Shown piece by piece: positions 209-14,383 of a DNA stretch of 14,383 nt. Numbering within the stretch: position 1 is the stretch's first letter; each line of letters begins with the position of its first letter. The notes beneath the pieces were generated by a model that saw only the letters and a program-made list of their open reading frames with translations, did not search any database and was not told where the DNA came from. The position numbers and the translations under genes were made by a program. This stretch comes from an uncultured Erysipelotrichaceae bacterium (GTDB lineage Bacteria > Bacillota_I > Bacilli_A > Erysipelotrichales > Erysipelotrichaceae): contig CANPNQ010000008.1 in the NCBI GenBank assembly GCA_947575425.1, forward strand, positions 1 to 14,383. Direction: 5' to 3'.

Positions 209-2131
209 TTACCTCCCGTAAATATGATTTCGGAACTCATCGTCACAAAACATCGTAACATCTATCATTTTCTGCCAAGTGCCAATATCACCCGCATTCG
301 TTGAATATGGCATATGGTATCCATCCTCGGTGTCAATCCAACCCTGTATATGCAAATGGGATCCAATAGCCATCCCGGTTTCTCCGACATCACCAATATA
401 ATCGCCCGCTGTGACAGAATCGCCTTCATGAACACGAACAGATTCATTATTTAGATGGAAATATGCGACATACAAATAACTTTCAATATCGTTACGCTTA
501 TCCTTTATTGGTATCTGCAAAATAATCTGATTTCCAGCAAAATTCTTACCGCATGTTGTCTCGCTGTGTTTCCCTTCATCCATGCAGATATCACCGCTTT
601 CTGTAATACCGTTTTGCACATAAATCACCTTTGCATCAGAAACCGCATATACTTTTACCCCTTTCGATGCAGGAATATCAGTTCCTCCGTGGAAGGCACC
701 GTCTAACATTTTTCGATATCCCACCTTATATACAACGCTTCCTGCCTCAACATCTTCTATCGCTATCGGACGTGATAAAAACGATGCATTTACATTCGGC
801 AAATAAACAAAATGAGCTGCGTACTTCATTCCGTTCTCTTTTAAAGAGAGACGTGCCTTATCTTTCAACTTTGCTATATTTTCATCAGAGCCATATTCTG
901 CCCGTTTATCGGGAGGCAACAACTGATACTCCGGAAATAAATCAAGATAATCTTCATAGGTCAAGGTTGAAGTTATGTCCGTACCAAACATAGTTTCTCT
1001 TTTCACGGTAATAGGTTCACCCCATGCATATTTGGCTGGATTATATTGATTAAAAATCATATCCAGCATATCATCATAATTAAGAATCCAAGTTTCTTCA
1101 TCCTTAGCATTATCAAGTAATGCAAAAAGAGCCTCGTATTCTTCTTTGTTCTCGGTAGTCCATCCCAACGCACTCGTAATAGATAAAACTTCATCCGGAA
1201 CTACGTTGGTATCGTATCTGTACTCATAATATACTTCATTTTCTACGAACGAAATCACCCGCCCGCTATATTCAAAACTGCAAATAATCATAATCAGGCA
1301 GATTGCAATGATGAATACAAGAATCACAGGGAGCATAGAGAGTAATCCGACAATTAAAGACGGAATCGATATGACAAACGAGATAATGCCTTGGAACAGA
1401 TGAATCATTGCTGGTATAAAATTTTTAATTAACCTCAGCCCTGTCCTTATTGTGCGCTTGGTATATCGTATGCCCTTTGTAGTGGAGGCGATGATATGAT
1501 CGCTGATATCATCACGAGAATTCAATTTGCTTTCAAATTTCCTTGCTTGATTAGATATTGTTTTTTTCGTACTGCTTCGAGGTGAAAAGCCCTGCTTCAT
1601 TTTAGGCTTTACTTGTTTATAATAAGCCTGCTTTTCTTCTTTCGTCTGATTCTTCCAAGAGGAGCGAGCATTTTTATAAAAACCACTGTCTTTATAAGAT
1701 TCTTTTCCATCACTTTCAGTTATATCCTCATCACCATGAGAGGATATTGGATCCACACTTTCGTTTTGGTTTTTTTGCTTTTCTCGTTTTTTCTTTGCTT
1801 CTTCCTTCTTTCTTTTTTCTTCTGCCTCTACATAAGATTTATAATACGTATGCCTTGCATGATGCTTTCTTATGACATTGATTCCGCTCCTGCCCAAACG
1901 ATAAGCATTGCGGACTCCATAGACAGAATCCGCTGTGCTTTCTTTTACAATTCCCGCTGATACGTCATCAAGCTCATCATAAAAATCCTCGGTAAAATTG
2001 GTAAACATTTGTGCTTCTGACTTAATCAGCGTCTTGGATCCCTGCATGATGCCCTTGCTTGTTTTAAAAGCAGTGTGCACTGTTTTATCCAATTGCACAT
2101 TTTTGAGCTTTACATGATCACTCATAACCAT
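209..2131 (-). CDS. Membrane-anchored M23 (LytM-type) peptidoglycan hydrolase of the conjugation apparatus
   Basis: This 640-residue protein is likely the cell-wall hydrolase that opens peptidoglycan for the mating channel (VirB1-like role). Residues 1-240 are hydrophilic, strongly basic and probably cytoplasmic, with a Lys/Glu-rich stretch at about 103-123. A hydrophobic region at about 238-285 forms one or two membrane helices. The C-terminal part carries an M23 zinc-peptidase domain with every key residue visible: HGGTD (H481, D485), the FH at 558-559, and HLH at 592-594. Two cysteines (C516, C527) sit in an insertion inside the M23 fold and could form a disulfide outside the cell. The segment at 320-460 matches nothing I know. 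The start codon shares its A with the VirB4 stop (TAATG), implying translational coupling; a second in-frame ATG lies two codons later. The hydrolase identity is firm; the transfer role is inferred from context. Confidence 0.9.
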   Translation of the reverse strand: MVMSDHVKLKNVQLDKTVHTAFKTSKGIMQGSKTLIKSEAQMFTNFTEDFYDELDDVSAGIVKESTADSVYGVRNAYRLGRSGINVIRKHHARHTYYKSYVEAEEKRKKEEAKKKREKQKNQNESVDPISSHGDEDITESDGKESYKDSGFYKNARSSWKNQTKEEKQAYYKQVKPKMKQGFSPRSSTKKTISNQARKFESKLNSRDDISDHIIASTTKGIRYTKRTIRTGLRLIKNFIPAMIHLFQGIISFVISIPSLIVGLLSMLPVILVFIIAICLIMIICSFEYSGRVISFVENEVYYEYRYDTNVVPDEVLSITSALGWTTENKEEYEALFALLDNAKDEETWILNYDDMLDMIFNQYNPAKYAWGEPITVKRETMFGTDITSTLTYEDYLDLFPEYQLLPPDKRAEYGSDENIAKLKDKARLSLKENGMKYAAHFVYLPNVNASFLSRPIAIEDVEAGSVVYKVGYRKMLDGAFHGGTDIPASKGVKVYAVSDAKVIYVQNGITESGDICMDEGKHSETTCGKNFAGNQIILQIPIKDKRNDIESYLYVAYFHLNNESVRVHEGDSVTAGDYIGDVGETGMAIGSHLHIQGWIDTEDGYHMPYSTNAGDIGTWQKMIDVTMFCDDEFRNHIYGR

Positions 2132-4569
2132 TACCCATGATCTATTTGATTTCTTTCATCCGGCTTTGTGGTCATAGCTCGATATAATTCTGTGTCTTTT
2201 GGGAAGTTATCAGTAAATGGAATCACCGCTTTGCCATTATATAGCAATCCGCTTCCTTCTTCTCCGTTGGCAATAAATGCCATCTGATCCTCGCTTATAT
2301 TAAACAATTCCTGTAGACATTCCCGATCACTCGCCGATTGATTCATCATGAGTACAAATTCACTGTTAGAAACCATGGTTCGTGTCGCCATATTGGACAG
2401 CAATTCTTCCGGGTTCTGCGTGATCCCAGTCAAAATAGCATTGTACTTTCTTGCTCTTTTCCACAGAATAGAGAAAAAATCCAAACAATAAGAGGAACTG
2501 AACAACGTCGTTATCTCATCAATATAGACACAAGATATCTTACCTTGATAAAAGTTAGATACCATACGCTGCCATAATGATTCCAAAACCACAAGCATAG
2601 CCAATGGCTTCATTGATGAAGGTAGATCTCTTGTTACATAGACAGTATATCTGTTTTTAATATCGACATTAGATTCCTTTGCGAAAAAGTTATTCGTTCC
2701 CTCTACGTAAATTTCCATTGCTTTAGCAACAGCTTGAGCTTCCGTATCTTGGATTTTTTTCATTTCATGATAGAAGTCCGTAAATGTTGGTACTTTCAAT
2801 GATTGGCTACTGCCATCTTTTTTGCTCTGTGTTACTTGCTCGCTATATCTGCCATAAACATATCTTGCACATCGATCTACCAAAGAAATAACACCCGGTG
2901 TCATCTGCCGATCTCCTACAATACAAGCAGTCATCGCTTGACAGAATTCCACTTTACTTGCTAGGAAATCCTTATCTTCAATTTCTCCATCTAAAGGATT
3001 CAAAAAGTTTCCGCTTGTATTATTTAGTTCAACAATCGTACCATCAATTCCTTTTAACTTGGCAAGATGGACGTATTCCATTTCCGGATCAATGACAATA
3101 ACATCCACATTGGGATTCATAAGCAAAAACATCAGCATTTCCTCTTTGCATTTAAAGGACTTGCCGCTTCCCGGTTTACCAAAAATCCATCCGGTAGGAT
3201 TCAGCAATAAAACACGATCACACCGCAGTAAATTCCCCGAAATACCGTTAATTCCATAATAGATGGAATTCTTTGTACGGTGATTCAGTTCCATAGAAGT
3301 AAATGGAATGAAACTGGCTGCCGCTGATGTAGTCAAGGTTCTTTCTATCGGTAAGCGAGAATAGCATAAGGGGAGCGCCGATTGAAAGCCTGCTTCCTGA
3401 AGAAAATAAATAGCGCCGAGATTTAAATTATGCTTTTTCGCTACATTGATTGCCCGCCTTTCCAGTTCCTCCAATTCTTCCTTACTCGCACAATTCAACA
3501 GCATAACAAATTGGCAACTGAATAGCCTCTGGTTTCTTGTTTTAATGTCCTCCAACAATGTCCTTGCTTCCTGATAACTGTATTTTGTTTCTTCAGGGAT
3601 CATTTCCGGACTGTAACCATTTTTGTATGCCTTTTGCTCCTCCTTGGTCTTATCTTTCTCAATGGTCGCCTTTTGACGCATAACCAGCTGTAATGCCTCT
3701 GCTTGATCGATGATTTTTAAATGGATATTGATGGTAAAGTTATATTGCAGTTTAGAAAGATCACTTAAAAAGGCATCGCATAACTCTGTGGAATAATTTT
3801 TTAAAAACAATACTTTACAAAAGCGATCTTCAATCTTAAAGGAAGCGTTATTCTCAAAATGTATTCCATCAGGAGCAATTGCATCCTTTGTGGATAACCC
3901 GTCTAAGTGCTCATAATCAAAATGCAATTTTTTCTTTGGTTGCATGATGTTATATAACAATTCAAGTCGTTCAGAACCGCGCATCATTCTCTGCTCTGGA
4001 AAAAGGCAGCCTAATGTCTTTAGTTTGCGCATCAATTCTTTTTGTATGGTAGATAATTCCCGATAGGCATCATCTAAAGTTTCTTCTTTGATCGCAAAAC
4101 TGATATATTTATCGCTGATGATATTGTTACTGCCTGTTTTCATTCCGTTAATCAACATATTGTTGATTTCTCCGCGGTACTTATCGCAATCATCTTCACG
4201 ATATTTTATTAACACATCATCACGATATTGCTCCTCATCAAGTGAATGGTTATGGATCGTAATGTCCATCCCTTCTTCCGGTGTCAGAGAATTCAAAAGC
4301 TGCATCCAATAAGAGAATATATCCTCTCTTTTTTCATCATTCGCAATTTGATAATTGATATCTTCTACCTTAATGGTAGCGCTGTATCGCTGATTTGGCA
4401 ATAAGGCAACACCGTTGGAAAACATCTTAACGTAAGGTATCAGATTCTGTGTGCTTCTTTTTACGTCCTTTTTCTTTTTTCGTTCCATCCTCTTGGATTT
4501 GTGCTTGCTCTTTGGCAATGCGCCGCCTGTTTCTTGCGGCAATAATTTTCTCTTTGATAGATTGATCAT
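2131..4569 (-). CDS. virB4: VirB4/TraE-family conjugation ATPase
   Basis: This is the VirB4-type ATPase (812 residues) that energises assembly of the type IV secretion channel at the cytoplasmic membrane. The Walker A motif GKPGSGKS is at about residues 464-471. The Walker B motif CVYIDEI has its acidic pair at about 684-685, and TGITQNPEE follows near 713-721. The N-terminal RSTQNLIPY segment is typical of Firmicutes TraE/VirB4 proteins. The start was chosen as ATG 4569 because AAAGGAG lies nine bases upstream. A TTG at 4593 would extend the frame by eight codons but lies upstream of that site. This start makes the first 47 codons overlap the end of prgI by 143 bases in another frame. An internal ATG at 4488 is possible, but its only purine-rich site directly abuts it. 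Length and motifs look intact. Confidence 0.96.
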   Translation of the reverse strand: MINLSKRKLLPQETGGALPKSKHKSKRMERKKKKDVKRSTQNLIPYVKMFSNGVALLPNQRYSATIKVEDINYQIANDEKREDIFSYWMQLLNSLTPEEGMDITIHNHSLDEEQYRDDVLIKYREDDCDKYRGEINNMLINGMKTGSNNIISDKYISFAIKEETLDDAYRELSTIQKELMRKLKTLGCLFPEQRMMRGSERLELLYNIMQPKKKLHFDYEHLDGLSTKDAIAPDGIHFENNASFKIEDRFCKVLFLKNYSTELCDAFLSDLSKLQYNFTINIHLKIIDQAEALQLVMRQKATIEKDKTKEEQKAYKNGYSPEMIPEETKYSYQEARTLLEDIKTRNQRLFSCQFVMLLNCASKEELEELERRAINVAKKHNLNLGAIYFLQEAGFQSALPLCYSRLPIERTLTTSAAASFIPFTSMELNHRTKNSIYYGINGISGNLLRCDRVLLLNPTGWIFGKPGSGKSFKCKEEMLMFLLMNPNVDVIVIDPEMEYVHLAKLKGIDGTIVELNNTSGNFLNPLDGEIEDKDFLASKVEFCQAMTACIVGDRQMTPGVISLVDRCARYVYGRYSEQVTQSKKDGSSQSLKVPTFTDFYHEMKKIQDTEAQAVAKAMEIYVEGTNNFFAKESNVDIKNRYTVYVTRDLPSSMKPLAMLVVLESLWQRMVSNFYQGKISCVYIDEITTLFSSSYCLDFFSILWKRARKYNAILTGITQNPEELLSNMATRTMVSNSEFVLMMNQSASDRECLQELFNISEDQMAFIANGEEGSGLLYNGKAVIPFTDNFPKDTELYRAMTTKPDERNQIDHG

Positions 4570-4900
4570 TGTTTTTAACTCCTTTCTTCTCAATCAGCAA
4601 AATCTGCTGATTCTGATATGATATTTTTTGATTTCTTATATAATACAAAATCACATATTTTAAATAGGTCTGCATCGGAATTCCATCCCGCTCACAAAAA
4701 CCAACTACGACTCCCGGCATGATAAAAATGATGATGATAATACCTACTCCATCAGATCCTATCAACGGATATAAAAAGAAACTGATGATAAGACCTAAAG
4801 CTGCACCGACCAATAAATATAGCCATTGTCTTCTTGTCAGTCCCAGCGCCCAACGTCCTTTATATTCCTTGATGTCTTTTGGCACTCTTACATATATCAC
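4427..4900 (-). CDS. prgI: PrgI-family (VirB3-like) conjugation membrane protein
   Basis: This 157-residue protein matches the PrgI family of Gram-positive conjugation systems, a small inner-membrane component encoded next to VirB4 and comparable to VirB3. The start YVRVPKDIKEYKGRW and the following GLTRRQW are family hallmarks. Two membrane helices follow at about 25-46 and 50-70, then a CERDGIP turn and a long basic, Lys/Arg-rich tail (about 100-157). The start was set at GTG 4900, because AAAGGAGG lies eight bases upstream; an upstream GTG at 4909 would fall inside that site. The tail overlaps the virB4 N-terminus by 143 bases in another frame. The gene follows the VirB6-like gene after a 14-base gap that holds the ribosome-binding site. 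Confidence 0.88.
   Translation of the reverse strand: MIYVRVPKDIKEYKGRWALGLTRRQWLYLLVGAALGLIISFFLYPLIGSDGVGIIIIIFIMPGVVVGFCERDGIPMQTYLKYVILYYIRNQKISYQNQQILLIEKKGVKNNDQSIKEKIIAARNRRRIAKEQAQIQEDGTKKEKGRKKKHTESDTLR
4579..4585 (-). promoter_or_regulatory. Ribosome-binding site deciding the virB4 start
   Basis: Read on the minus strand this is AAAGGAG, nine bases before the ATG at 4569. It lies inside the prgI coding region and is the main reason for placing the virB4 start 143 bases upstream of the prgI stop instead of after it. Confidence 0.7.
4592..4612. repeat. 8-bp inverted repeat upstream of the virB4 ribosome-binding site
   Basis: AATCAGCA at 4592-4599 and TGCTGATT at 4605-4612 are perfect reverse complements around a 5-base loop. 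In the transcript the hairpin would end six bases before the AAAGGAG site of virB4. It lies within prgI codons, so it may be chance or may tune virB4 initiation through passage of the prgI-translating ribosome. No run of U follows, so it is not a terminator. Confidence 0.4.
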
Positions 4901-4914
4901 ATTTTCCACCTCCT

Positions 4915-5751
4915 TTAATGTGCTCCCATAATTGCCTTACTCCATGATCCTGTCTGAAATAATGCAATCACCAATAAAATGGTATAGCCTATAAATTCCC
5001 ACATGGATGTGCTTACTTCATTCACAGATATCACCACCGCTTCTGTTGTAATCATTTGACCGTAAAATAAAAATACAACCATAATGAAAACGACCTGCAA
5101 GGATAAAGCGCAGATCCGCTTAATAAACCCATAGCCGATTGACGATATTTCATGACTGCTTGATACAACAGTTGCTAATGGCAATGCTGCAATCGCACTC
5201 ATCACGTATATTTCAACATAACGTAATTTTAAAACAATCCCGCAAAGTGATTGGCATAATGGCTGAATCACATTAATAATTGAACATGTAAACCATAAAG
5301 AAATCAATGTTCCTATGTCCTGTCCCTCCAAAGCATCTGTAACACTACCGCTGACCGCCGGTACTGTGTTGATAGTAAAATTGGCATTTCTGACAATTTC
5401 AGCCGAAAGAGAGTAGACACCGTCCAAAATTTCCGGTATATTTTCCAACACCATCATTCCTATCATCAGTTTGAATATAAAGATAACAAAAAAGCGCAAA
5501 GATTCAATTCCCTGCGCTTCTGTTTTCCTTAGTATTTGAATCAACTCGGTAAATAGAAAAATACTCAAGATCATATATGCAATCGGCAAAACAGCCCGTT
5601 CATTGATTGATAAAACAGTACTCCAAATATTTTGATTAAACTGCGATGGCGATTTGGATGCTAAAGAAATAAGATCCCCGATACTTTCTGTGAGTAAGCG
5701 GAATACTTCATTCACTTGATTCACAATGCCATTTATCAGCCAATCCCACAT
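4915..5751 (-). CDS. VirB6/TrbL-like polytopic conjugation channel protein
   Basis: This 278-residue protein has about six hydrophobic segments, near residues 54-74, 86-106, 148-174, 180-197, 214-234 and 251-268. The N-terminal part (MWDWLINGIVNQVNEVF and on) looks amphipathic. Length, topology and position directly before prgI and virB4 match the VirB6/TrbL-type channel proteins of Firmicutes conjugative elements, which line the inner-membrane part of the transfer pore. AAAGGAG nine bases before ATG 5751 supports the start. Four cysteines occur in or near membrane segments. There is no catalytic motif. Assignment rests on topology and synteny more than on diagnostic residues, so the family name is likely, not certain. 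Confidence 0.8.
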   Translation of the reverse strand: MWDWLINGIVNQVNEVFRLLTESIGDLISLASKSPSQFNQNIWSTVLSINERAVLPIAYMILSIFLFTELIQILRKTEAQGIESLRFFVIFIFKLMIGMMVLENIPEILDGVYSLSAEIVRNANFTINTVPAVSGSVTDALEGQDIGTLISLWFTCSIINVIQPLCQSLCGIVLKLRYVEIYVMSAIAALPLATVVSSSHEISSIGYGFIKRICALSLQVVFIMVVFLFYGQMITTEAVVISVNEVSTSMWEFIGYTILLVIALFQTGSWSKAIMGAH

Positions 5752-6117: not shown

Positions 6118-6420
6118 TTAAAAATTTCTCGCTACATAACGTACTGTAACAATATGAACTTGTCGCTTCTTCTTATAATCACGGTAGATAATCACATAAT
6201 TCTTGACAAATAATTGCCGATATTTACCTGTTCCATAAATACCTACTTGTCTGATTGATCCTCGCTCCGGCATCTGATCTAGACTCAATATTGCCTTTTC
6301 CAGATTCTTTACCATCGATGATGCAATATCAGGAACATGCAGATTTTCCGCAATATAAGAATAAATTTCGTTTAGATCCTGCAACGCTCGAGGATATAAA
6401 CTGACCGTATATTTATCCAA
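6118..6420 (-). CDS. RelE/ParE-superfamily toxin of a type II toxin-antitoxin pair
   Basis: This 100-residue basic protein has the RelE/ParE layout: an N-terminal strand (KYTVSLYPRALQDL), paired helices (NEIYSYIAENL and a second near residues 33-50), then C-terminal strands. The conserved YRQLFVKNYVIIYRDY and VHIVTVRYVARNF segments are typical of this superfamily. Such toxins act on ribosome-bound mRNA (RelE type) or on DNA gyrase (ParE type); the sequence does not decide which. The start is TTG at 6420, preceded by GGAGG with a seven-base gap. It overlaps the antitoxin stop by eight bases, so antitoxin and toxin are translationally coupled. The pair interrupts the run of conjugation genes and has its own promoter, consistent with an acquired stability cassette. 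Confidence 0.9.
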   Translation of the reverse strand: MDKYTVSLYPRALQDLNEIYSYIAENLHVPDIASSMVKNLEKAILSLDQMPERGSIRQVGIYGTGKYRQLFVKNYVIIYRDYKKKRQVHIVTVRYVARNF

Positions 6421-6676
6421 AATACTTCCTCCGTAATAAGGATAATGCTTCTTCCGCCGGAATCAACGTGCCATCTTCACGAAATTCACTTTCTGCCTCA
6501 CTGATCGCTTTGTCTGTTTGCGTCGTTTCCAACATTTCTTCATACGTTTCAATACTCATAACCACCAGATCGCCATAGCCGTTTTTGGTAATAAATATCG
6601 GCTCCCTTTTCTCATGGCACAAATCAGATATTTCAGTTGTGTTACGCAAATCTGTAATAGGTTTAATTTGTGGCAT
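6413..6676 (-). CDS. Phd/YefM-family antitoxin
   Basis: This 87-residue protein is the antitoxin partner of the downstream RelE/ParE-type toxin. The N-terminal half (PQIKPITDLRNTTEISDLC, then EPIFITKNGYGDLVVMS) is the Phd/YefM DNA-binding fold, and SIETYEEML follows. The acidic C-terminal half would wrap the toxin. The start was set at ATG 6676, with GGAGG eight bases upstream; a TTG at 6691 would add five residues but precedes that site. Proteins of this family bind palindromes in their own promoter and repress it with toxin as co-repressor. A perfect 13-bp inverted repeat covering the -10 element just upstream fits this exactly. Confidence 0.92.
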   Translation of the reverse strand: MPQIKPITDLRNTTEISDLCHEKREPIFITKNGYGDLVVMSIETYEEMLETTQTDKAISEAESEFREDGTLIPAEEALSLLRRKYFG

Positions 6677-6691
6677 TTCATACACCTCCAA

Positions 6692-6758: not shown

Positions 6759-7178
6759 TTAAGACACCTCCCTTAAATATAGTTCCATTTCTTCCTGAGA
6801 AACATCAATAATATCCATATCTTCCAGATAATCAGCATAATTTGCCGGATCCATTTCCCATCCGGCATCCAACTGATGCGCTTCCCTTTGCTCCTTGATA
6901 TAGTGATAGGGATTCAAATACTTGCTTTGATCCGCATCCGCAGTCATATTATAATGTGAATGATGAGTAAGGTTGTATTTGCAATCACGATATATATAAT
7001 GCCCTCTGACATCGATCAAGCATTCATTTGGCTTTAATCGTTTGATTTCATCCGGTGGCAGCAGCTGCCTTTGAATCAATTGATTGCTTCTGCTCCAAGA
7101 ACCGTTTGCCCCCTTCGTTTCTTGAATCGACATATAGTCTATCGTTGTGTTACCAATATTTTTCGATAAGTATTCCAA
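6759..7178 (-). CDS. C-terminal part of the VirD4/TraG coupling protein, separated by an in-frame stop
   Basis: These 139 codons continue the VirD4 frame exactly where the stop at 7188-7190 ends it. Read through, the sequence is LGGK-stop-FTTLEYLSKNIGN, where intact VirD4/TraG proteins read without a break. Later blocks QLLPPDEIKRLKPNECLIDVRG and IYRDCKYN are typical of the TraG C-terminus, which finishes the RecA fold. The only start codon near the break is a TTG at 7178; the nearest GG-rich site, GGTGG, is about 16 bases away, so independent translation looks weak. No further stop has appeared over the fragment, so the break is recent, is a sequencing error, or is tolerated (readthrough or a two-piece protein). 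It is the last gene before the toxin-antitoxin promoter. Confidence 0.7.
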   Translation of the reverse strand: MEYLSKNIGNTTIDYMSIQETKGANGSWSRSNQLIQRQLLPPDEIKRLKPNECLIDVRGHYIYRDCKYNLTHHSHYNMTADADQSKYLNPYHYIKEQREAHQLDAGWEMDPANYADYLEDMDIIDVSQEEMELYLREVS

Positions 7179-7187
7179 TGTAGTAAA

Positions 7188-7190
7188 TTA
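7188..7190 (-). other. In-frame TAA interrupting virD4
   Basis: The codons around it read GGT GGA AAG TAA TTT ACT ACA TTG GAA TAC, so upstream and downstream segments are in the same frame. A single-base change from GAA, CAA or AAA would create this stop. TAA also ends other genes here (for example virB4 and the M23 gene), so it is not reassigned in this genome. Confidence 0.9.
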
Positions 7191-8711
7191 CTTTCCACCC
7201 AAGAAGATTGTTGTATCACAGTTGCCGTATATTGTTTCCCAAACATCATTTTGATACATAAATTTCAGTTGTGACAATGCCTGCAACAGAATAAAGACAA
7301 ATATGTTTCGGGAACGCACAGTGGATATCTTTTTTTCAAAATCCAGTATTTTCCCTGTGTTGGCAAATTCATCCAAAATGAACTGCACTGGGATAGGTAG
7401 TGCTCCAAGAGGTCGGATATCTGCCTGCTTATACAACAAATCAAACAACTGTTGATAAATGATTGCCGCAAGGAAGGAAAAGGTAGAATCACTGTCTGAA
7501 ATACAGATAAACAGGGCTGTCTTGATATATTTTTCTGGATCGCTATCCGGTACACTTTCCTTTCCCTTTCTGATTTTAGGATTACCAATGGTCTCCAAAT
7601 GCAATTCATCCTTTGAAAGCAGATCATTTAGCTGCGGAAGGTTAAATACAGATAATCGGCTGCTTAGCGTGATTAAAATGGACTTCGCTGTTTTTCCTGC
7701 TGCCTTTTTAAACAAAGAATACTGTCGACATGCAAGATATTGATAGGAATTCTTACATGACAAAACAAGTTTAGGATCACCGCTTTGTAATTTTGCATTG
7801 ACTTCTTCTTGCAATTCCTGAAAGACAAAATCCATAACAGACATCTTACTGTCATCATCCTCCGCCGCCTCCATCATATCCAACAGATCCATGATTCTGG
7901 GTATGTTTTGGTTTTGAGGATAATCTGTTCCCATAATCAGGAAGGACAATGCCATAAGTAAAGTCAATCCTGCTTTGTCCCAAAATTCATCACCACCTGT
8001 TTTATTGGGATCTTTTGTATTCTCCATCAGATTGTTTAAAAACTTCATGATATCCGTTGCCGATTTACAATAATGGTATGGATTATATCTCATAGAATTA
8101 TCCATGTTATTTAGATCCAAGATTTTTAAGTCATATCCTTTATCAATAAAGGTTTGCCCATACTCTTTAACCAAGGTTCCTTTTGGATCCGTCACCACCA
8201 CATTGGAAAGAAACTGTAACAAATTCGGCTTGACTAAAAACCTTGTTTTACCGGAACCACTCCCTCCGCACGCCAAAACATTATTATTCAAGAATGTTTT
8301 TCTTGTGTTAATAGATAACTGAACATTTTCGGATAATATAATATTCTGGAAGGGATCAGGATCCTTCAATACTTGTGCTTCCTGTAGCGTACCATACCGG
8401 GCTGAACCATGTTCTTCCCCTACCTTATAATTTCTGCGCTTTGTCATAAAGTAATAATACAATGCTTCCGCAAACAATACGACAAGCGTACTTACAAGAA
8501 GCGATGGTAGACGGAAATCAACCGTTAACCCTTGCTGTGAAAAAGAAAATGATGGGAAAAAGCGGTCTATGGCCTCATTGATAGCCATAAATATATTGGG
8601 ATTTTCACTGTTCAATGTAAGTAGTGTCAGTCGATTCCCGCAAATAAAGGCTGCGATTCCAAGAAACAGTGCTATTCTTTTATTCGGTTTGCGTATTTTC
8701 TGGGAAATCAT
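7188..8711 (-). CDS. virD4: VirD4/TraG-family type IV coupling protein, truncated by an in-frame stop
   Basis: This is the type IV coupling ATPase that recruits the relaxase-DNA complex and protein substrates to the channel. Visible are two N-terminal membrane helices (about 12-32 and 68-88), the HGSARYGT segment (101-107), Walker A GGSGSGKT (149-156), TDPKG (174-178), and Walker B with DEFANTG (447-453). The 507-residue product stops just after LGGK, before the final block of the ATPase fold, which continues in the same frame at 6759-7187. An unbroken protein would be about 650 residues, near the usual size of the family. The start has AGGAGG seven bases upstream and overlaps the ArdC stop (ATGA). 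Either this is a recent nonsense mutation that would impair transfer, or the stop is read through or is an assembly error. Confidence 0.92.
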   Translation of the reverse strand: MISQKIRKPNKRIALFLGIAAFICGNRLTLLTLNSENPNIFMAINEAIDRFFPSFSFSQQGLTVDFRLPSLLVSTLVVLFAEALYYYFMTKRRNYKVGEEHGSARYGTLQEAQVLKDPDPFQNIILSENVQLSINTRKTFLNNNVLACGGSGSGKTRFLVKPNLLQFLSNVVVTDPKGTLVKEYGQTFIDKGYDLKILDLNNMDNSMRYNPYHYCKSATDIMKFLNNLMENTKDPNKTGGDEFWDKAGLTLLMALSFLIMGTDYPQNQNIPRIMDLLDMMEAAEDDDSKMSVMDFVFQELQEEVNAKLQSGDPKLVLSCKNSYQYLACRQYSLFKKAAGKTAKSILITLSSRLSVFNLPQLNDLLSKDELHLETIGNPKIRKGKESVPDSDPEKYIKTALFICISDSDSTFSFLAAIIYQQLFDLLYKQADIRPLGALPIPVQFILDEFANTGKILDFEKKISTVRSRNIFVFILLQALSQLKFMYQNDVWETIYGNCDTTIFLGGK

Positions 8712-9736
8712 ACCATTACCTCCTGTGCTTCTTTTTCGCGTGTTCTGTTATCTTGCTCAGCATTGAATTCAGCCTTTTGCTTTGCGGCTGCAATTCTTTC
8801 ATCGAGTGAAAATTGCTTCTGTTCTGCCGACACATCCTTTATCTGCTCCGGACAAAGTTCACTCATATAATCCTGAATCAATTCTGCATCCTTGATCGCT
8901 TTGAATAATTCATCCGGATCATTTTTCAATGTATCAATCCAAAAGCCCACATAAGACTTGTGTGACTCCATATGTGATTCATCATACTCTACATCCAGCA
9001 TCCCCATCATAAAAGCACTGGCAATCTCTGCCCGCATTTCCTCTTTTGCATATTCCGGAGAGCCAAAACTATTTTTCATGCCTCGATTCAACCTGCTTTC
9101 ATGTCCGGTTGCATGTGCGAGTTCATGCAAGAATGTCGCACAATATGCTTTTTCACTATCAAAACTTTGTAGCGGAGGCATAATAACTTGATCAGCCAAA
9201 GGCGCATAATAAGCCTCTACTCCTTCCTTTTGCAAGACGCCCATCCCGTTTGCTATTTTTTCAATTCTTGCAAGTGTTTTCGTCCTATCTATTAACTCCT
9301 TGGGAGGCAATTCCGGTATATGATCGATCTGCTCGGCATTAAATACTGTATAACTTTTGGATATAAAGCGTATATAATCTCTCGCATCAGCATCTTCCCT
9401 CAGCAATTGGTTCGCTTCCTGCATCGTTAATTTCTTTTTGGTTTTCGCATTATATGCACTCCAAAACTCAATTGGAACGCCATGTTCTCCGGATTTTACC
9501 TGCCATCCCTTTTCCTGAGCTTGACGATATGTCATCCATCTGGGATCGTGATAATTGCATTTGAATGCATAGTAATTTAGCACCATAAGATTAAAGCTTC
9601 CTGTATACCGCTTCTCGGTACTTGGATTGTAAAATTCATTGACATGCCACGGCTGTTCCCAAGGAATAATATCTTCAGAGAGACTATCAATAAAAGCCTG
9701 TACAATTTTTTCTCTGGCTTTCGATGCGTATTTCAT
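8708..9736 (-). CDS. ArdC-like antirestriction protein (ssDNA-binding domain plus zincin metallopeptidase)
   Basis: This 342-residue protein has the two-part ArdC layout. The N-terminal ssDNA-binding domain (about 1-130) has the family segments PWEQPW, TGSFNLMVLN, DPRWMTYRQA and KSGEHGVPIEFW. The C-terminal zincin domain carries HELAH (204-208) and the third ligand region KEEMRAEIASAF (E237). ArdC proteins protect incoming single-stranded DNA from restriction, and the ArdC of plasmid pSa is known to be carried into the recipient. The tail ends with SLDERIAAAKQKA (310-322) plus a charged stretch, a motif shared with other proteins of this operon. AAAGGAGG lies seven bases before the ATG, which overlaps the previous stop as ATGA; the VirD4 start overlaps its own stop the same way. 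Confidence 0.9.
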   Translation of the reverse strand: MKYASKAREKIVQAFIDSLSEDIIPWEQPWHVNEFYNPSTEKRYTGSFNLMVLNYYAFKCNYHDPRWMTYRQAQEKGWQVKSGEHGVPIEFWSAYNAKTKKKLTMQEANQLLREDADARDYIRFISKSYTVFNAEQIDHIPELPPKELIDRTKTLARIEKIANGMGVLQKEGVEAYYAPLADQVIMPPLQSFDSEKAYCATFLHELAHATGHESRLNRGMKNSFGSPEYAKEEMRAEIASAFMMGMLDVEYDESHMESHKSYVGFWIDTLKNDPDELFKAIKDAELIQDYMSELCPEQIKDVSAEQKQFSLDERIAAAKQKAEFNAEQDNRTREKEAQEVMV

Positions 9737-9981
9737 ATCTGTACCTCCTTTCCGGTTATATCAAACATCTGAACTGCCTCAGCTTTGCCACTCATCATAT
9801 CCGCAACAAGCTTCGGCATATCACACGGCAGCATATTTTCTGGATAAAATATATTCTCTTGTAAAGTTGGATCTATTTCTGCCATCATTTCTTCTATTTC
9901 AAAAAAAGCAGCCATTTGATCAGAATTGTGTAAAACATCATCCTGAAAAGCCGCTCTTAATTTTTTCTCGTTTTCTCTCAT
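9733..9981 (-). CDS. Small acidic hypothetical protein
   Basis: This 82-residue soluble protein is acidic, with a helical central part (DQMAAFFEIEEMMAEI) and a TGKEVQI end. I do not recognise it. It has no membrane segment and no C-terminal SLDDRL-type motif. It starts nine bases after the PcfB-like gene stop, with a loose AGGT/AGGG-rich site upstream, and its stop overlaps the ArdC start (ATGA). Small acidic proteins next to antirestriction genes can be DNA mimics or partners of the neighbouring protein, but nothing in the sequence shows either. Confidence 0.75.
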   Translation of the reverse strand: MRENEKKLRAAFQDDVLHNSDQMAAFFEIEEMMAEIDPTLQENIFYPENMLPCDMPKLVADMMSGKAEAVQMFDITGKEVQI

Positions 9982-9990
9982 CCCTATTAC

Positions 9991-10608
9991 CTACCTTGAC
10001 CCATAATCAGGCATTTCAGCACTTCTATCCCGATGAACGCTCTGATCTGCCTCATAATTTCTGCGACGCTCTTGTGCGCGATAAGTACGCTCATCCAAAT
10101 TCACATTCGCATGTTTGAGAATTTCTTTTACAATACTCTCCACTTTCGGAATATCACGACAGGCAAATGTGATTTTAAAATCTTCACTGACTTCCCTTCT
10201 TTGATCATTGATCACTTTTGTCCACATATGCAAAGTCATTTGTTCGCTTTCGGAAAGATTATCTTTCTGTAACAGATCCTGAATGTTATCCGGTTTCCTT
10301 TCATATGCGTACTTTAAGCCATATTGCTTGGCCAGTTGATTAAAAAGCGACATTTCGTTTTCCTCAAAGTTTGCGCCAAAAGAATCAAATTGATTGATAC
10401 CTTGCTCTACTTGCGCGCTATAAAAATCCTCAATGTTATCATAGGCGATCCCTTCTACAAACTCGCTCATTTGCTTAGAAGCTTCCTTTAAAGTCGCATT
10501 TCTAAACTCTTTTTTTGACATTACCTTAACAAATGTCTCTAAAGCACTCATGACACCTCTAGTCATATTGCCACTGATTCTCACAGCTTCGTTTTCAGTT
10601 GATTTCAT
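9991..10608 (-). CDS. PcfB-like (DUF3801) conjugation protein
   Basis: This 205-residue protein resembles PcfB/DUF3801. The recognisable parts are a helical N-terminal half, the LAKQYGLKYAYERKPD block in the middle, and FKITFACRDIPKVESIVKEI near 140-162. In pCF10, PcfB works with the VirD4-type coupling protein PcfC, and here the gene lies two genes upstream of virD4. The start was set at ATG 10608, with AAGGAGG six bases upstream; an earlier start at 10656 would add 16 basic residues and bypass that site. It overlaps the preceding membrane-protein gene by 14 bases. The tail NLDERTYRAQERRRNYE (from residue 170) is a degenerate version of the C-terminal motif seen in its neighbours. The family call is moderate, since it rests on pattern and context. 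Confidence 0.72.
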   Translation of the reverse strand: MKSTENEAVRISGNMTRGVMSALETFVKVMSKKEFRNATLKEASKQMSEFVEGIAYDNIEDFYSAQVEQGINQFDSFGANFEENEMSLFNQLAKQYGLKYAYERKPDNIQDLLQKDNLSESEQMTLHMWTKVINDQRREVSEDFKITFACRDIPKVESIVKEILKHANVNLDERTYRAQERRRNYEADQSVHRDRSAEMPDYGSR

Positions 10609-10861
10609 GTTGTTCCTCCTTTTGGTTCTCATCTGAATTTTGAATTTTATATTCAATTACATACAGCAAAATTAGTAATACAATACAGATAATAATATAC
10701 AGCTGATTCTTTAATATTAGCTGTATTACGATCTTAACAGCCAGTATATTCATAGCAGTAGTATGAGAAATCGCAACGCATAAAATATATAGCAGCAGTA
10801 TTCCAGCTGCCATATATAGTTTTGATTGATGAAAAGCCTTATTGAGAAAGTTCCTTATCAT
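10595..10861 (-). CDS. Small two-helix membrane protein of unknown function
   Basis: This 88-residue protein has two strongly hydrophobic segments, at about 15-32 and 38-70 (the second may be two helices), and a short charged C-terminus. I do not recognise the family. The start was placed at ATG 10861, after the purine-rich AGAAAGAG; an ATG at 10879 would add six residues. It overlaps the end of the preceding gene by 23 bases and the start of the PcfB-like gene by 14, so it is locked into the operon by translational coupling. A role in the membrane part of the transfer machinery is plausible from context only. Confidence 0.65.
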   Translation of the reverse strand: MIRNFLNKAFHQSKLYMAAGILLLYILCVAISHTTAMNILAVKIVIQLILKNQLYIIICIVLLILLYVIEYKIQNSDENQKEEQHEIN

Positions 10862-11657
10862 TGCGCTCTTTCTCTGCATGCTCTTTTGCGTTGCCTTCTT
10901 TATGCTTATTCTTCTCCGCCGTTTTTAATCGATCGTCTAAAGATTTCTCTTTTTTCTTGAATTGAAAAGCTTCTACCAAGTCTTTTCCTTTTACTTTAAG
11001 CACATCATCAACCTTGAAACCTGCTTCGTTACGTTTCTCATTGTCATACAGGATTAGGTATTCCTTTTCCGCTTTTAAGCCGACTACATAATGCTCTCTG
11101 CCATCGTCCTTTTTCCAATATTGATCTTCTCTTATCATATAGTCTGGAACAAGCAGATAAGGGTTTTTCAATGGTTCATCCTCTTGCATAAGCGGGGTTT
11201 TAGAAAGTTTAGCAGATGGAAGTCTGACTTTAGCCAATATAATCGGGTTGCCATAATCATCAGTTGAGTTTTTGCTGGGAAACTTGGCGATGATTTGATT
11301 CCCGGTAATTCGGACAAATTTCAGTTTGCTTTTTTGATCATCCTCCGTCTTTTCGACTTTCGGTTCCTCAGTTGTCGGAAGGTGAGCCTTTACTTCTTCC
11401 AATGAGATCGCTCGTTTTAAATAGGAATCAATATCATACGGAGCCATGGTTGACAAATCGACAGGATATACCTCTTTGAGATTAGAATTGATACATACCA
11501 CCATACTGCGATTTACGTCATCGCTTTGAAGCTGCGTTTCCCAATCCGAGTCCTTTACCTTCCATTGATATCCCCGATCTCGTAAAAATTCCAACATTTC
11601 TGTATTTTCGTTTTTTCCCCTGCCCAATGCATAGATCAATTTGGTCACACATTTCAC
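10839..11657 (-). CDS. Accessory protein of unknown function with C-terminal SLDDRL motif
   Basis: This 272-residue soluble protein is not one I recognise. Residues 19-68 (EMLEFLRDRGYQW through NLKEVYPVDL) resemble the N-terminal module of the 548-residue protein just upstream. A charged linker near 95-113 leads to a beta-rich middle part (about 113-230), with phrases such as LKFVRITGNQIIAKFPS and NPIILAKVRLPSAKL. The C-terminus has KSLDDRLKTAEKNK from residue 238, followed by a Lys/Glu-rich tail. The GTG start at 11657 directly abuts the upstream TAG stop; a second in-frame GTG three codons later is better spaced from AGGTAGGTG and may be the true start. The shared N-terminal module and tail suggest it acts with its upstream neighbour. 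Confidence 0.8.
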   Translation of the reverse strand: MKCVTKLIYALGRGKNENTEMLEFLRDRGYQWKVKDSDWETQLQSDDVNRSMVVCINSNLKEVYPVDLSTMAPYDIDSYLKRAISLEEVKAHLPTTEEPKVEKTEDDQKSKLKFVRITGNQIIAKFPSKNSTDDYGNPIILAKVRLPSAKLSKTPLMQEDEPLKNPYLLVPDYMIREDQYWKKDDGREHYVVGLKAEKEYLILYDNEKRNEAGFKVDDVLKVKGKDLVEAFQFKKKEKSLDDRLKTAEKNKHKEGNAKEHAEKERNDKELSQ

Positions 11658-13304
11658 CTACCTTTTCAAGGATTGAGAATCCTTCTCTTTTAAAGGAATT
11701 TCTCTTTGCGAGGATTGATTTACTTTTTCTTGTGCCGATCTTAAGCGATCATCCAATGATTTGTGTTTGGTTTCTTTATGCGCAGGGAGAAAAGGTATTT
11801 TATCATTCTCAACAGAAATCCCATTTTTTTCTAATAATGCATGGAACAATGGTTTTCCTTCTGCCACACTTTGGCTATAGAGCGTTTTTATTTCCTGAGA
11901 GGTCATTTTGCAATCAAATGAAACATCATTTGCTTTATAATCAAAATCGACATTATTTTGCAAATTGTTTTTAACATAAAACTGTATTGCATCCTCAACC
12001 TGTTGGCTGGCCTCTATCAAGTCACCATTTCTAATAATTACATTATAAGTGATATCAAAATAATCACTGTCTTGCTGCGCTTGTTCCCATAGTTTCTTTA
12101 AGCCTTGTTCCAATTCCTCATGGGTTGCTTCTCTTAACTGACCTTGAGAAACTAATTTTTCTATTGAATCATTCGCTGAGATGCTAAAATCACTAAATAC
12201 GAATTTTGGCTCAGGACCATACTCCAGTCTATCTATACTTAAATTATAGAAATCTTTAACTTTACCATCAGGGTATGCTTTAATGAAATCACCTTGTTTT
12301 AATCTGGCTATTTCTGCTTCTTCCCCATTCTTAAACACAAAGGTATCTTCTTCATCCACGACATCATATACATCGTGAAAGATACCATATATAGAGATTG
12401 GATCGCTTCCCTTTATTTGGTAAAGGGAAGGATTATTAGGATCTTTAATCTCCTTTTTTATTGGATCATATCCTTGTTCTTTCAGAAGCTCTTGAAACAG
12501 GGGAATTCCGACTCGCTCGCCTCTATCTTTGATCGCCAAAATTTCTTCCTTATGCGTATCAAACCCATTAACAACCATTTCATTATTTAGCCTAATATAC
12601 ACCATAAGATTTCCTTCTTTATCGGCATCATTTAAATAACTTTCTATCTTCTGGTTAAACTCTGCTTCAATTTGATGTATATCGCTACCTTCCAAATCAA
12701 TCATGACAGGCTGTATTTTTTCCCATTCTTTCTCTTCTTCCTTGATTTTCGCCTCCACTGCCTGTTTTAATTCATTTTCATCAACAGTGATCAGATATCC
12801 ATTCTCTAACATATCTTTTACTTCTTCTTTATCAGCAACTCTTAAATTAAAATAATATCGAATATCCGTTGCGGCTTGATACCCCATCTCATCATGGAAA
12901 GGATATCCCTGACAGCTTCCATCAGGGCGCAATTCAATATAATCATCCTTCCCTAATCGCATGACAACATCTGTATTATACGGATTCTGCAAAGGATATA
13001 GTTCTTCGTCGTTTGACAGATCATAATCTCCACAGATGGCTATGTTGCCCTCTGTGATACGATAGCAAGTAGCCTCATTCATATATCGATTAACGCTCTT
13101 TACCAATTTGTCGGAATTCTCAAGCACTTTTGCTGCCGGTAAACATTCAACGCTACGATCCTCATAATTCAGCGCTAGCACTTGATCTTGTGCCAAATCT
13201 GGTAAAACATTTTCATTAAGTTTGAAACCTTGAAAATTCAATACCTCAATCATCTGCTTCATTTGCTCATCATTCTGTACCATCACGTACTTCATTTTTT
13301 CCAT
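11658..13304 (-). CDS. 548-residue accessory protein with an internal duplication and C-terminal SLDDRL motif
   Basis: This soluble, acidic protein belongs to no family I can name. After an N-terminal module (about 12-60) similar to that of its downstream neighbour, two related halves follow, at about 80-280 and 294-497. Matching landmarks are LGKDDYIELRPDG / LKQGDFIKAYPDG, YFNLRVADKEEVKDMLENG / FSDFSISANDSIEKLVSQG, and GIPLFQELLKEQGYD / GKPLFHALLEKNGIS. The tail carries KSLDDRLRSAQEKV (from 515) and a charged end. A perfect 10-bp inverted repeat sits at the junction of the two halves. AAAGGAGG lies eight bases before ATG 13304, in a 54-base gap after the upstream gene, making this one of the best translation starts in the window. 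The function is unknown; the size, acidity and tail fit an element-specific accessory or exported protein. Confidence 0.85.
   Translation of the reverse strand: MEKMKYVMVQNDEQMKQMIEVLNFQGFKLNENVLPDLAQDQVLALNYEDRSVECLPAAKVLENSDKLVKSVNRYMNEATCYRITEGNIAICGDYDLSNDEELYPLQNPYNTDVVMRLGKDDYIELRPDGSCQGYPFHDEMGYQAATDIRYYFNLRVADKEEVKDMLENGYLITVDENELKQAVEAKIKEEEKEWEKIQPVMIDLEGSDIHQIEAEFNQKIESYLNDADKEGNLMVYIRLNNEMVVNGFDTHKEEILAIKDRGERVGIPLFQELLKEQGYDPIKKEIKDPNNPSLYQIKGSDPISIYGIFHDVYDVVDEEDTFVFKNGEEAEIARLKQGDFIKAYPDGKVKDFYNLSIDRLEYGPEPKFVFSDFSISANDSIEKLVSQGQLREATHEELEQGLKKLWEQAQQDSDYFDITYNVIIRNGDLIEASQQVEDAIQFYVKNNLQNNVDFDYKANDVSFDCKMTSQEIKTLYSQSVAEGKPLFHALLEKNGISVENDKIPFLPAHKETKHKSLDDRLRSAQEKVNQSSQREIPLKEKDSQSLKR
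12406..12430. repeat. 10-bp perfect inverted repeat inside the 548-residue protein gene
   Basis: CTTCCCTTTA (12406-12415) and TAAAGGGAAG (12421-12430) are perfect reverse complements around a 5-base loop. They lie in codons of the linker between the two duplicated halves of the protein (about residues 292-300). No U run follows on either strand, so it is not a standard terminator. Confidence 0.5.
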
Positions 13305-13358
13305 ATTGTTTTCCTCCTTTTGCTTTAATCCACTTATTTAGAAAGCCACTGCTCTTCC

Positions 13359-14383
13359 CTATCTTACTACGGTCTCTGCGGCTTTCTCTTTCTGTACTTC
13401 TTCCTTTTGGGAAGTCTGCATCGTTTTGTCCTTCGCATGTTTCAAACGCTCATCCAATGTTTTTCCCTTTTGAAGCTCGTTTACAACTTCTTTACCGGAT
13501 ATTATCTTTCTTGCTTTATCAAGACGTACCTCCAAATTACGGGAAGTATTGATGGAGACAGAAATATGTTGATCATCAACCGTTTTTACAGAATTACTTG
13601 GTACGGCAATCGTAGCACCCATGCCAATAGAATTTTCTTGCGGTAAAGCAATGATTGTGATGGAAAGTGGTTTTCCACTTTTATCCTTTTTATTTTCGGA
13701 TTGAAACACATGACATACAGCGGACTTATCCATCGTAACGCTTTCAAACTTATTTGTTTCCTCACGTTTATGCAAGGCCTGATCTGCAGCTTTACTGATT
13801 GTCTCATTCTCGCTCTCCTGTAGCATATACATGGTTGCATTGGAACAATTTGGATTGGCAAGAACTGCAAGCAATACTTTCTCATCCGTCGTTTTAGATG
13901 CAATCGAATGTAACTTTGATGATCCGCTTTCCAAACTATTAGCCGCTGCCATATACTTGTCAATTGAATCATCCTTCTTGGGTGACTCCTTATTTTCTTT
14001 CTCTTGAGGATCTTGCTTTTCTTGACTCTTTAACTGATTCAGTGCTGCTTGTGCTGCCTGTCGAATAGATTTATCCTCGTTTTCATTACTTATCAAAAGC
14101 ATCAGAACAGCCGGATGGATATCCTGTTTGTGTTCTTGGATCATAGTTACTCTCTCCGAGGCGGGCAATGGATCATCATTTTCAAGCAATTCCCATTCAT
14201 ACATGTTAAGGTTAAGGCTGTTTACATCCTTTTCCTTCTTTTGTGCCTCGCTAATCAGATCCTGATATTCTGCTGCCGCTTCCATAACATCCTTGTAGCT
14301 TTCGCTTTCCTTAAAGGAAACATCTCCTGTCTGATCGTCAATTTTAAAGTTATTGACAATCAAAAAATTATCCTCTCCAAGTT
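13359..14383 (-). CDS. Accessory protein with HEAT/LRV-like helical repeats and C-terminal TLDERL motif (5' end probably outside the window)
   Basis: The frame is open from the window edge to TAG at 13361-13359. A TTG at 14363 with GGAGAGG eight bases upstream could start a 334-residue protein, but six further sense codons precede it, so the true start may lie beyond the window. Numbered from that TTG, two helical segments (about 70-112 and 148-200) look like HEAT or variant leucine-rich repeats; the clearest is LLAVLANPNCSNATMYML followed by SENETISKAADQAL. A Lys/Glu-rich linker (112-135) separates them. A possible beta-rich domain at 208-280 follows, then TLDERLKHAKDKT from 302 and a charged tail. 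The repeat folds usually bind proteins. I do not recognise the whole protein; its role in the element is unknown. Confidence 0.8.
   Translation of the reverse strand, partial: LGEDNFLIVNNFKIDDQTGDVSFKESESYKDVMEAAAEYQDLISEAQKKEKDVNSLNLNMYEWELLENDDPLPASERVTMIQEHKQDIHPAVLMLLISNENEDKSIRQAAQAALNQLKSQEKQDPQEKENKESPKKDDSIDKYMAAANSLESGSSKLHSIASKTTDEKVLLAVLANPNCSNATMYMLQESENETISKAADQALHKREETNKFESVTMDKSAVCHVFQSENKKDKSGKPLSITIIALPQENSIGMGATIAVPSNSVKTVDDQHISVSINTSRNLEVRLDKARKIISGKEVVNELQKGKTLDERLKHAKDKTMQTSQKEEVQKEKAAETVVR

Follow-up and report, generated by a model that had tools for sequence, protein, structure and literature searches.

The window analysed here, a stretch of 14,383 bases, is the entire contig C8 (CANPNQ010000008.1) of an uncultured Erysipelotrichaceae bacterium, whose assembly (GCA_947575425.1) has a size of 1.49 Mb (1,490,995 bases) and is 66.5% complete. 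It carries genes of a conjugative element in the order p334, p548, p272, a protein of 94 amino acids (aa), an 82-aa protein, a PcfB-like protein, an ArdC-type antirestriction protein and VirD4, followed by a Phd/ParE pair, VirB6-, PrgI- and VirB4-like proteins and an M23 peptidase, all on the minus strand. The motif (S/T)LD(D/E)R(L/I)xxA is present at the C-terminus of four of these proteins (p334, p548, p272 and ArdC), and a weaker copy is found in the PcfB-like protein. An earlier note on this DNA had described these tails as a candidate type IV export or docking tag; the coordinates and residues that it gave for all five proteins are correct, and so are its four codon runs for L-D-(D/E)-R-(L/I), which differ in every copy. 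The tailed proteins are as follows.

13359..14363, minus strand: p334, soluble protein without assigned function; its homologue is a 590-aa protein (25% identity) of L117, a related element described below
13362..13460, minus strand: C-terminal tail of p334, TLDERLKHAKDK plus 21 residues
13503..13538, minus strand: upstream second motif copy in p334, NLEVRLDKARKI (coordinates computed via the distance to the stop)
11658..13304, minus strand: p548, with no family above cut-off
11661..11759, minus strand: C-terminal tail of p548, SLDDRLRSAQEK plus 21 residues
10839..11657, minus strand: p272; its C-terminal domain is common with p334 and its tail is predicted to be a separate helix
10842..10943, minus strand: C-terminal tail of p272, SLDDRLKTAEKN plus 22 residues
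9991..10656, minus strand: PcfB-like protein (DUF3801, under the Pfam cut-off)
9994..10101, minus strand: weaker tail of the PcfB-like protein, NLDERTYRAQER plus 24 residues
8708..9736, minus strand: ArdC-type antirestriction protein, ArdcN plus zincin-like MPTase-PolyVal
8711..8809, minus strand: C-terminal tail of ArdC, SLDERIAAAKQK plus 21 residues

The tail motif in the window

The degenerate DNA pattern WSNYTNGAYGANMGNNTNNNNNNNGCN has four matches in the 1,490,995-base assembly, all four at C-termini of window proteins, and the reversed pattern, used as a control in the same assembly, has none. In the four strong copies the motif starts 33-34 residues from the protein end, and 42-53% of the residues from the motif to the end are K, R, D or E. 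The tails are thus charged, as the earlier note had said, but with a net charge of -2 to +2 they are almost neutral and not of the positively charged kind.

For a leave-family-out test, in which p272 and p334 were removed together, a motif list hand-picked by the analyst was scored over 10,238 positions in the predicted genes of the window and of L117. The five window tails scored 13.2-22.9; outside the listed tails, 0 or 1 of these positions scored as high, the one being the second copy in p334. This copy lies 59 residues from the end and matches NLEVRLDK in the PcfB-like protein of L117. The weaker PcfB-like tail was also recovered by this model. Together with the tail position and the pattern matches, the test supports a protein-level C-terminal tag on several proteins of the conjugative element. 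Genes were called by the longest open reading frame (ORF), and because of this rule some of them are false, above all in GC-rich loci.

The bodies ahead of the tails are less diverse than the earlier note had assumed. A domain ahead of the tail is common to p272 and p334 (23% identity over 159 residues, E 1.8e-4), so that the common tail, present on all four proteins, belongs to three unrelated bodies and additionally to the PcfB-like protein, not to four different bodies. This leaves ArdC, p548, p272/p334 and the PcfB-like protein as independent bodies, of which ArdC, p548 and the PcfB-like protein are mutually unrelated. Two homologues each were found for p272 and p548. Since its frame is open at the contig end, the N-terminus of p334 is possibly missing. 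ArdC is assigned by PF08401 (ArdcN, 89.7 bits) followed by PF18818 (MPTase-PolyVal, 123 bits), both above cut-off. The PcfB-like label comes from a DUF3801 match of 18.1 bits, under the Pfam cut-off of 24.1, so that membership in the PcfB family is not supported; the protein has 32% identity to its L117 counterpart (itself DUF3801 20.1 bits).

A nine-tail profile, whose training rows match by construction, found the five window tails, four tails in contig C32 of genome G001 and four in contig C40 of G005. One extra poor match was obtained in G001 (E 1.14, with a stop inside), and there was no match in G002, G003, G004 and G006. AlphaFold2 predicts, behind a disordered linker, a low-confidence helix at 311-341 for the ArdC tail (pLDDT about 44-67) and, likewise behind a disordered linker, a low-confidence helix at 240-270 for the p272 tail (pTM only 0.46); the p272 fold had no PDB match at E <= 0.001. 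From its residues, S/T-L-D-D/E with L, L/I and A at i, i+4 and i+7 would be expected to form a capped amphipathic helix.

The tail motif is absent from the transfer machine parts of the window, which are listed below.

6759..8711, minus strand: VirD4-like coupling protein of the CD1115 family, candidate receptor; no tail motif
4915..5751, minus strand: VirB6/TrbL-like channel protein; no tail motif
4427..4909, minus strand: PrgI-family protein; no tail motif
2131..4593, minus strand: VirB4-like ATPase of the CD1110 family; no tail motif
209..2131, minus strand: M23 peptidase, acting as the transfer machine's cell-wall lysin; no tail motif

VirD4 with VirB4, VirB6 and PrgI nearby is the arrangement of a CD1115-type VirD4 element, and the element matches are NF045973 (381.5 bits, cut-off 250), NF045971 (802 bits), PF19478 (31.7 bits) and PF12666 (65.6 bits). 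The VirD4 frame is broken by a single in-frame TAA at 7188-7190 (minus strand), after which the remainder stays in frame; this may be a real inactivation or an assembly error. Between virD4 and the virB-like genes sit a ParE-type toxin and a Phd/YefM antitoxin (6118-6691, minus strand), and two small genes at 7891-8470 of the locus L081 resemble such a pair by appearance.

Tails in related and other elements

Two genomes of the same genus have an element (L116 and L117) whose VirD4 is 59% identical to that of the window, the closest among the loci compared. The bodies have diverged to 30% identity for p272, 25% for p334, 26% for ArdC and 32% for the PcfB-like protein, and LxxRLxxA is retained at the tails of the ArdC, p272 and p334 homologues in both elements. 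Further LxxRLxxA tails are found on a DUF3991/Toprim protein and on orf284, giving five tails and no internal copy in L116 and L117 each. The pattern [ST][LIV]..[RKQ][LIM]..A[KRQE] occurs in the window, L116 and L117 six times at 15-45 residues from the end and never internally (13,046 positions). The check named by the earlier note, whether the motif is equally common internally or in other genes, turned out in favour of a tag for the window group and for two other loci.

For wider comparison we used loci of integrative and conjugative elements (ICEs) and 20 control stretches, the latter selected by position without a gene-by-gene check, one of which (L217) overlaps an ArdA locus. Of 80 ArdC loci, 33 entered the statistics, mostly picked by title as Firmicutes; 14 further ArdC loci lie on viral contigs. 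The same [ST][LIV]..[RKQ][LIM]..A[KRQE] pattern gave two tails and no internal copy in three named plasmid loci, three tails in 70 other ICE loci (0.26 expected) and none in the control stretches. [STP]L[DE][ED].[ILVM]..A gave five tails in other ICE loci (0.5 expected), all in L039 and L081, and none in the controls, and the loose capped helix [ST][LIV]...[LIM]..A gave 18 in the other ICE loci (11.7 expected, p = 0.067), which is no significant enrichment. Among tail pairs of all 73 ICE loci, 17 of 8,055 were alike at p<1e-4 versus two internal pairs, which is a modest excess. When ArdC, ArdA, Toprim and PcfB were taken as four families, 3 of 24 within-element pairs versus 2 of 576 pairs between elements were alike at p<0.001 (Fisher p 5e-4), a test that was not blind because the families were picked with the positive loci already known.

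Several elements have a common tail of their own on antirestriction proteins, namely L081, L051, L241 with L119, and L235-L237. In L081, AAIEEALEAAE or TLDEAxxxALExAE is carried by ArdC, ArdA, a pentapeptide protein, a nucleotidase-like protein and a 490-aa protein, and the Toprim protein is without it. In L051, QQMLGKGR is found on ArdC and ArdA, and LLGKGR and LMGKSR on two further proteins. In contig C120 of G044, NEPDITEDM is present on ArdA and an AAA protein (ATPase) almost 30 kb apart, and is absent from ArdC. Two stand-alone ArdAs (L245 and L246), whose elements we take to be Tn916-like, have no tail. Two further sets were noticed: in L194 (G147), three proteins (2157-3023, 13767-14435 and 17813-18616), two of which look like paralogues, have tails SLKLxxLKxxxKKEY...IPKKEK(E/Q)IER spotted only by eye, near a VirD4 48% identical to that of the window; and in L057 (620-2164), PVYWEDVRxxEAVxxA lies near the C-termini of ArdC and the next protein alike.

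Another type of tail was found in the vanB element of pMG2200, which is presumably Tn1549-like. Here PSIRxxLxx(A/D)xK tails are on PcfB, a 1,306-aa ArdA/ArdcN/LPD25/YodL protein and a 314-aa protein; PSIR-like tails are also on ArdA/LPD18, DUF3849/ArdcN and MutS_I proteins of Vescimonas and on two proteins of Monoglobus. A model of these tails, independent of the window tails, found 15 tails in other ICE loci (2.2 expected) and one in the controls (0.5 expected); the 15 are not independent because several resemble PcfB-family proteins in size and place. On the window it scored 14.4 for p548, 11.9 for p272, 6.6 for ArdC and below 4 for p334, and none of 3,826 internal window positions reached 11. 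Acidic tails (L044, L050 and L120) are of low complexity, and shuffling accounts for roughly half of the resemblance among them (pairs scoring at least 30, observed versus shuffled: 31 versus 15 in L050 and 14 versus 4.3 in L120). At 741000-784400 of G012:C1, the PSIR-tailed element L124 adjoins acidic-tailed genes (L120 and the end of L124).

A broad form of the motif is found in the last 60 residues of 41 of 120 ArdC homologues among those listed (of 971), and of 39 of the 81 listed homologues up to 365 aa, with one internal match in 40,204 positions. P0004 (63% identity to the window ArdC) and P0124 (52% to p548) have a common but different 30-residue tail, identical at 17 of 30 positions, which would count for a joint change of tails within an element.

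A proposed docking tag and its alternatives

We propose for the tail, at about an even chance, the role of a short docking tag at the C-terminus, by which accessory proteins would be recruited to the VirD4 complex of the element for delivery with the DNA. A flexible linker would bear an N-capped amphipathic helix, S/T-L-x-x-R-L-x-x-A, with L, L/I and A on one face at about 33 residues from the end, and this helix would label the soluble accessory proteins whose genes lie upstream of virD4 (ArdC, PcfB-like, p272, p334 and p548). The coupling-protein complex of the element itself (VirD4, possibly together with PcfB) would recognise the tag, and the tagged proteins would enter the type IV channel together with the DNA or alongside it, and would function early in the recipient in antirestriction, priming or other counter-defence. 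The tail, its position, its rarity elsewhere and the sharing of tails in several elements are observed; the receptor, the translocation and the role in the recipient are what we infer. Delivery fits the data because of the tagged set and because the tag is missing from the window's transfer machinery. ArdA and ArdC act in the recipient, and the tagged sets of the window and other elements are rich in ArdC, ArdA, Toprim and polyvalent domains, types thought to act there. If each element recognises tails of its own kind, tails within an element would stay alike and change together. The window motif looks like this lineage's version of a wider habit and not like a universal motif. As a more tentative extension, possible but below an even chance, many Firmicutes VirD4-type elements may use an element-specific C-terminal address code, in which one tail would be common to the antirestriction proteins, primases and polyvalent proteins of an element, and the tails would match its coupling complex and switch together with the receptor.

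A number of results weigh against the docking tag or its extension. In 71 other loci, a model of the SLDER tail at a threshold T of at least 10 found five tails versus 3.2 expected, which is chance level, and LxxR[LIV]xxA was found in one tail and 14 times internally; the enrichment of the exact motif in other VirD4-type loci, for which the earlier note had proposed a search, was therefore not found beyond chance, and a universal single motif was rejected. Many elements have no common tail at all, 20 of the 24 within-element pairs of the four-family test have no sharing at p<0.01, and when tails of one family were compared between elements, 50 of 219 were alike (29 of 219 at p<0.001). Control pairs were alike at p<1e-4 in 3 of 2,756 cases for tails and in none for internal positions. 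Among the nearest relatives, the leave-family-out test fails for PcfB and orf284 of L117 (equal or higher scores at 43 and 42 other positions, respectively), and a 190-aa L117 protein resembling the p548 N-terminus over 74 residues is without the tail. P0004 and P0124 are on separate short contigs.

The relaxases belong to the same account. The only PF03432 match in the assembly is G000:C114:1951-2352 (L149, L248), on a separate 4.9-kb contig, and it scores 3.2 and -2.8 in the two tail models; with 28 further relaxase ORFs, all 29 scored below 9 in either model, so that the motif was not found in the one relaxase seen in the assembly; the earlier note had suggested looking for it in the element's relaxase. 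In the L195 relaxase (8441-9955, minus strand), SIKDKIQAAREEV at 35 residues from the end fits the tag pattern. Relatives of this relaxase are without the motif, the match is probably a chance one within a coiled coil, and no link of the tag to relaxases was found.

The main rival, which we regard as rather unlikely, is a donor-side hub, in which a docking helix assembles the accessory proteins with each other, PcfB or the relaxosome and nothing is exported. PcfB-family proteins, which resemble donor-side components, are tailed in the window and pMG2200, the relaxase was found without a tail, and the low-confidence helix predictions agree with a docking helix; the tagged sets, however, include ArdA and ArdC, whose known job is in the recipient, and nothing indicates a joint donor action of these families. 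A less probable explanation still is common descent, whereby tails were copied long ago between neighbour genes and form a generic helical linker with no common partner. The domain of p272 and p334 ahead of the tail makes part of the likeness plain homology, p334 has two copies, and helices with charged residues are common. Against this stand the different codons in every copy, the unrelated bodies of ArdC, p548 and PcfB-like, the persistence of the motif positions between elements with bodies 25-30% identical, and the lack of any other match in the assembly or in the tails of the 20 control stretches. It is least probable, and in our view improbable, that the tail is a host-directed or stability tag, recognised by a protease, chaperone or replication protein of the host. 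C-terminal tags of such a type are known, and the acidic tails (L120, L044 and L050) could mimic the tail of the host single-stranded DNA-binding protein; but PSIR-type and acidic tails adjoin in the single genome G012, which ties the tail to the element rather than to the host.

Few of the proteins delivered with DNA by Firmicutes conjugative elements are known. The docking tag, if true, would enable a set of injected proteins to be listed from sequence, and functions would follow for many unassigned genes in such elements. The tails also supply short peptides for receptor testing.

Comparison with known systems

C-terminal signals of type IV secretion systems (T4SSs) as such are already known. 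Conjugative T4SSs hand plasmid proteins to recipients, some via C-terminal signals (PMC8406263, PMC11288057), and the C-termini of E. coli substrates are able to route Cre through the F system (PMC11288057). Like the signals of VirB/VirD4-type and conjugative T4SSs, the window tails are C-terminal, flexible, charge-rich and placed on different folds. They differ in being a defined, spaced helical motif common to several proteins of one element, in being near-neutral and not net positive as in the Agrobacterium type (charge classes as in PMC11288057), and in that the relaxase found in the assembly is without the tail.

An earlier account of shared element-specific tails, the PSIR type included, was not found in listings of the open-access literature. 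The CD1115-type tails of pMG2200, Vescimonas and Monoglobus, PSIRxxLxxAK ... (D/E)(M/L)E(L/V), are on PcfB, ArdA/YodL polyvalent and other proteins, and are like the window tails in the spacing S-Phi-x-x-x-L-x-x-A-K at 29-34 residues from the end. The window tails are without the P and the final MEL-like end, and only p548 and p272 score at least 11 in the model of that type.

The window ArdC, with ArdcN and MPTase-PolyVal, is of the kind described for polyvalent proteins (Iyer et al. 2017, PMC5512222), and LPD, YodL, ArdA and Toprim domains are found on tagged proteins of other elements. That paper states the transfer of ArdC and proposes that polyvalent proteins are delivered with the DNA; its text uses neither "secretion signal" nor "delivery signal" nor "C-terminal tail". 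To these polyvalent proteins, the tail described here adds a candidate routing signal.

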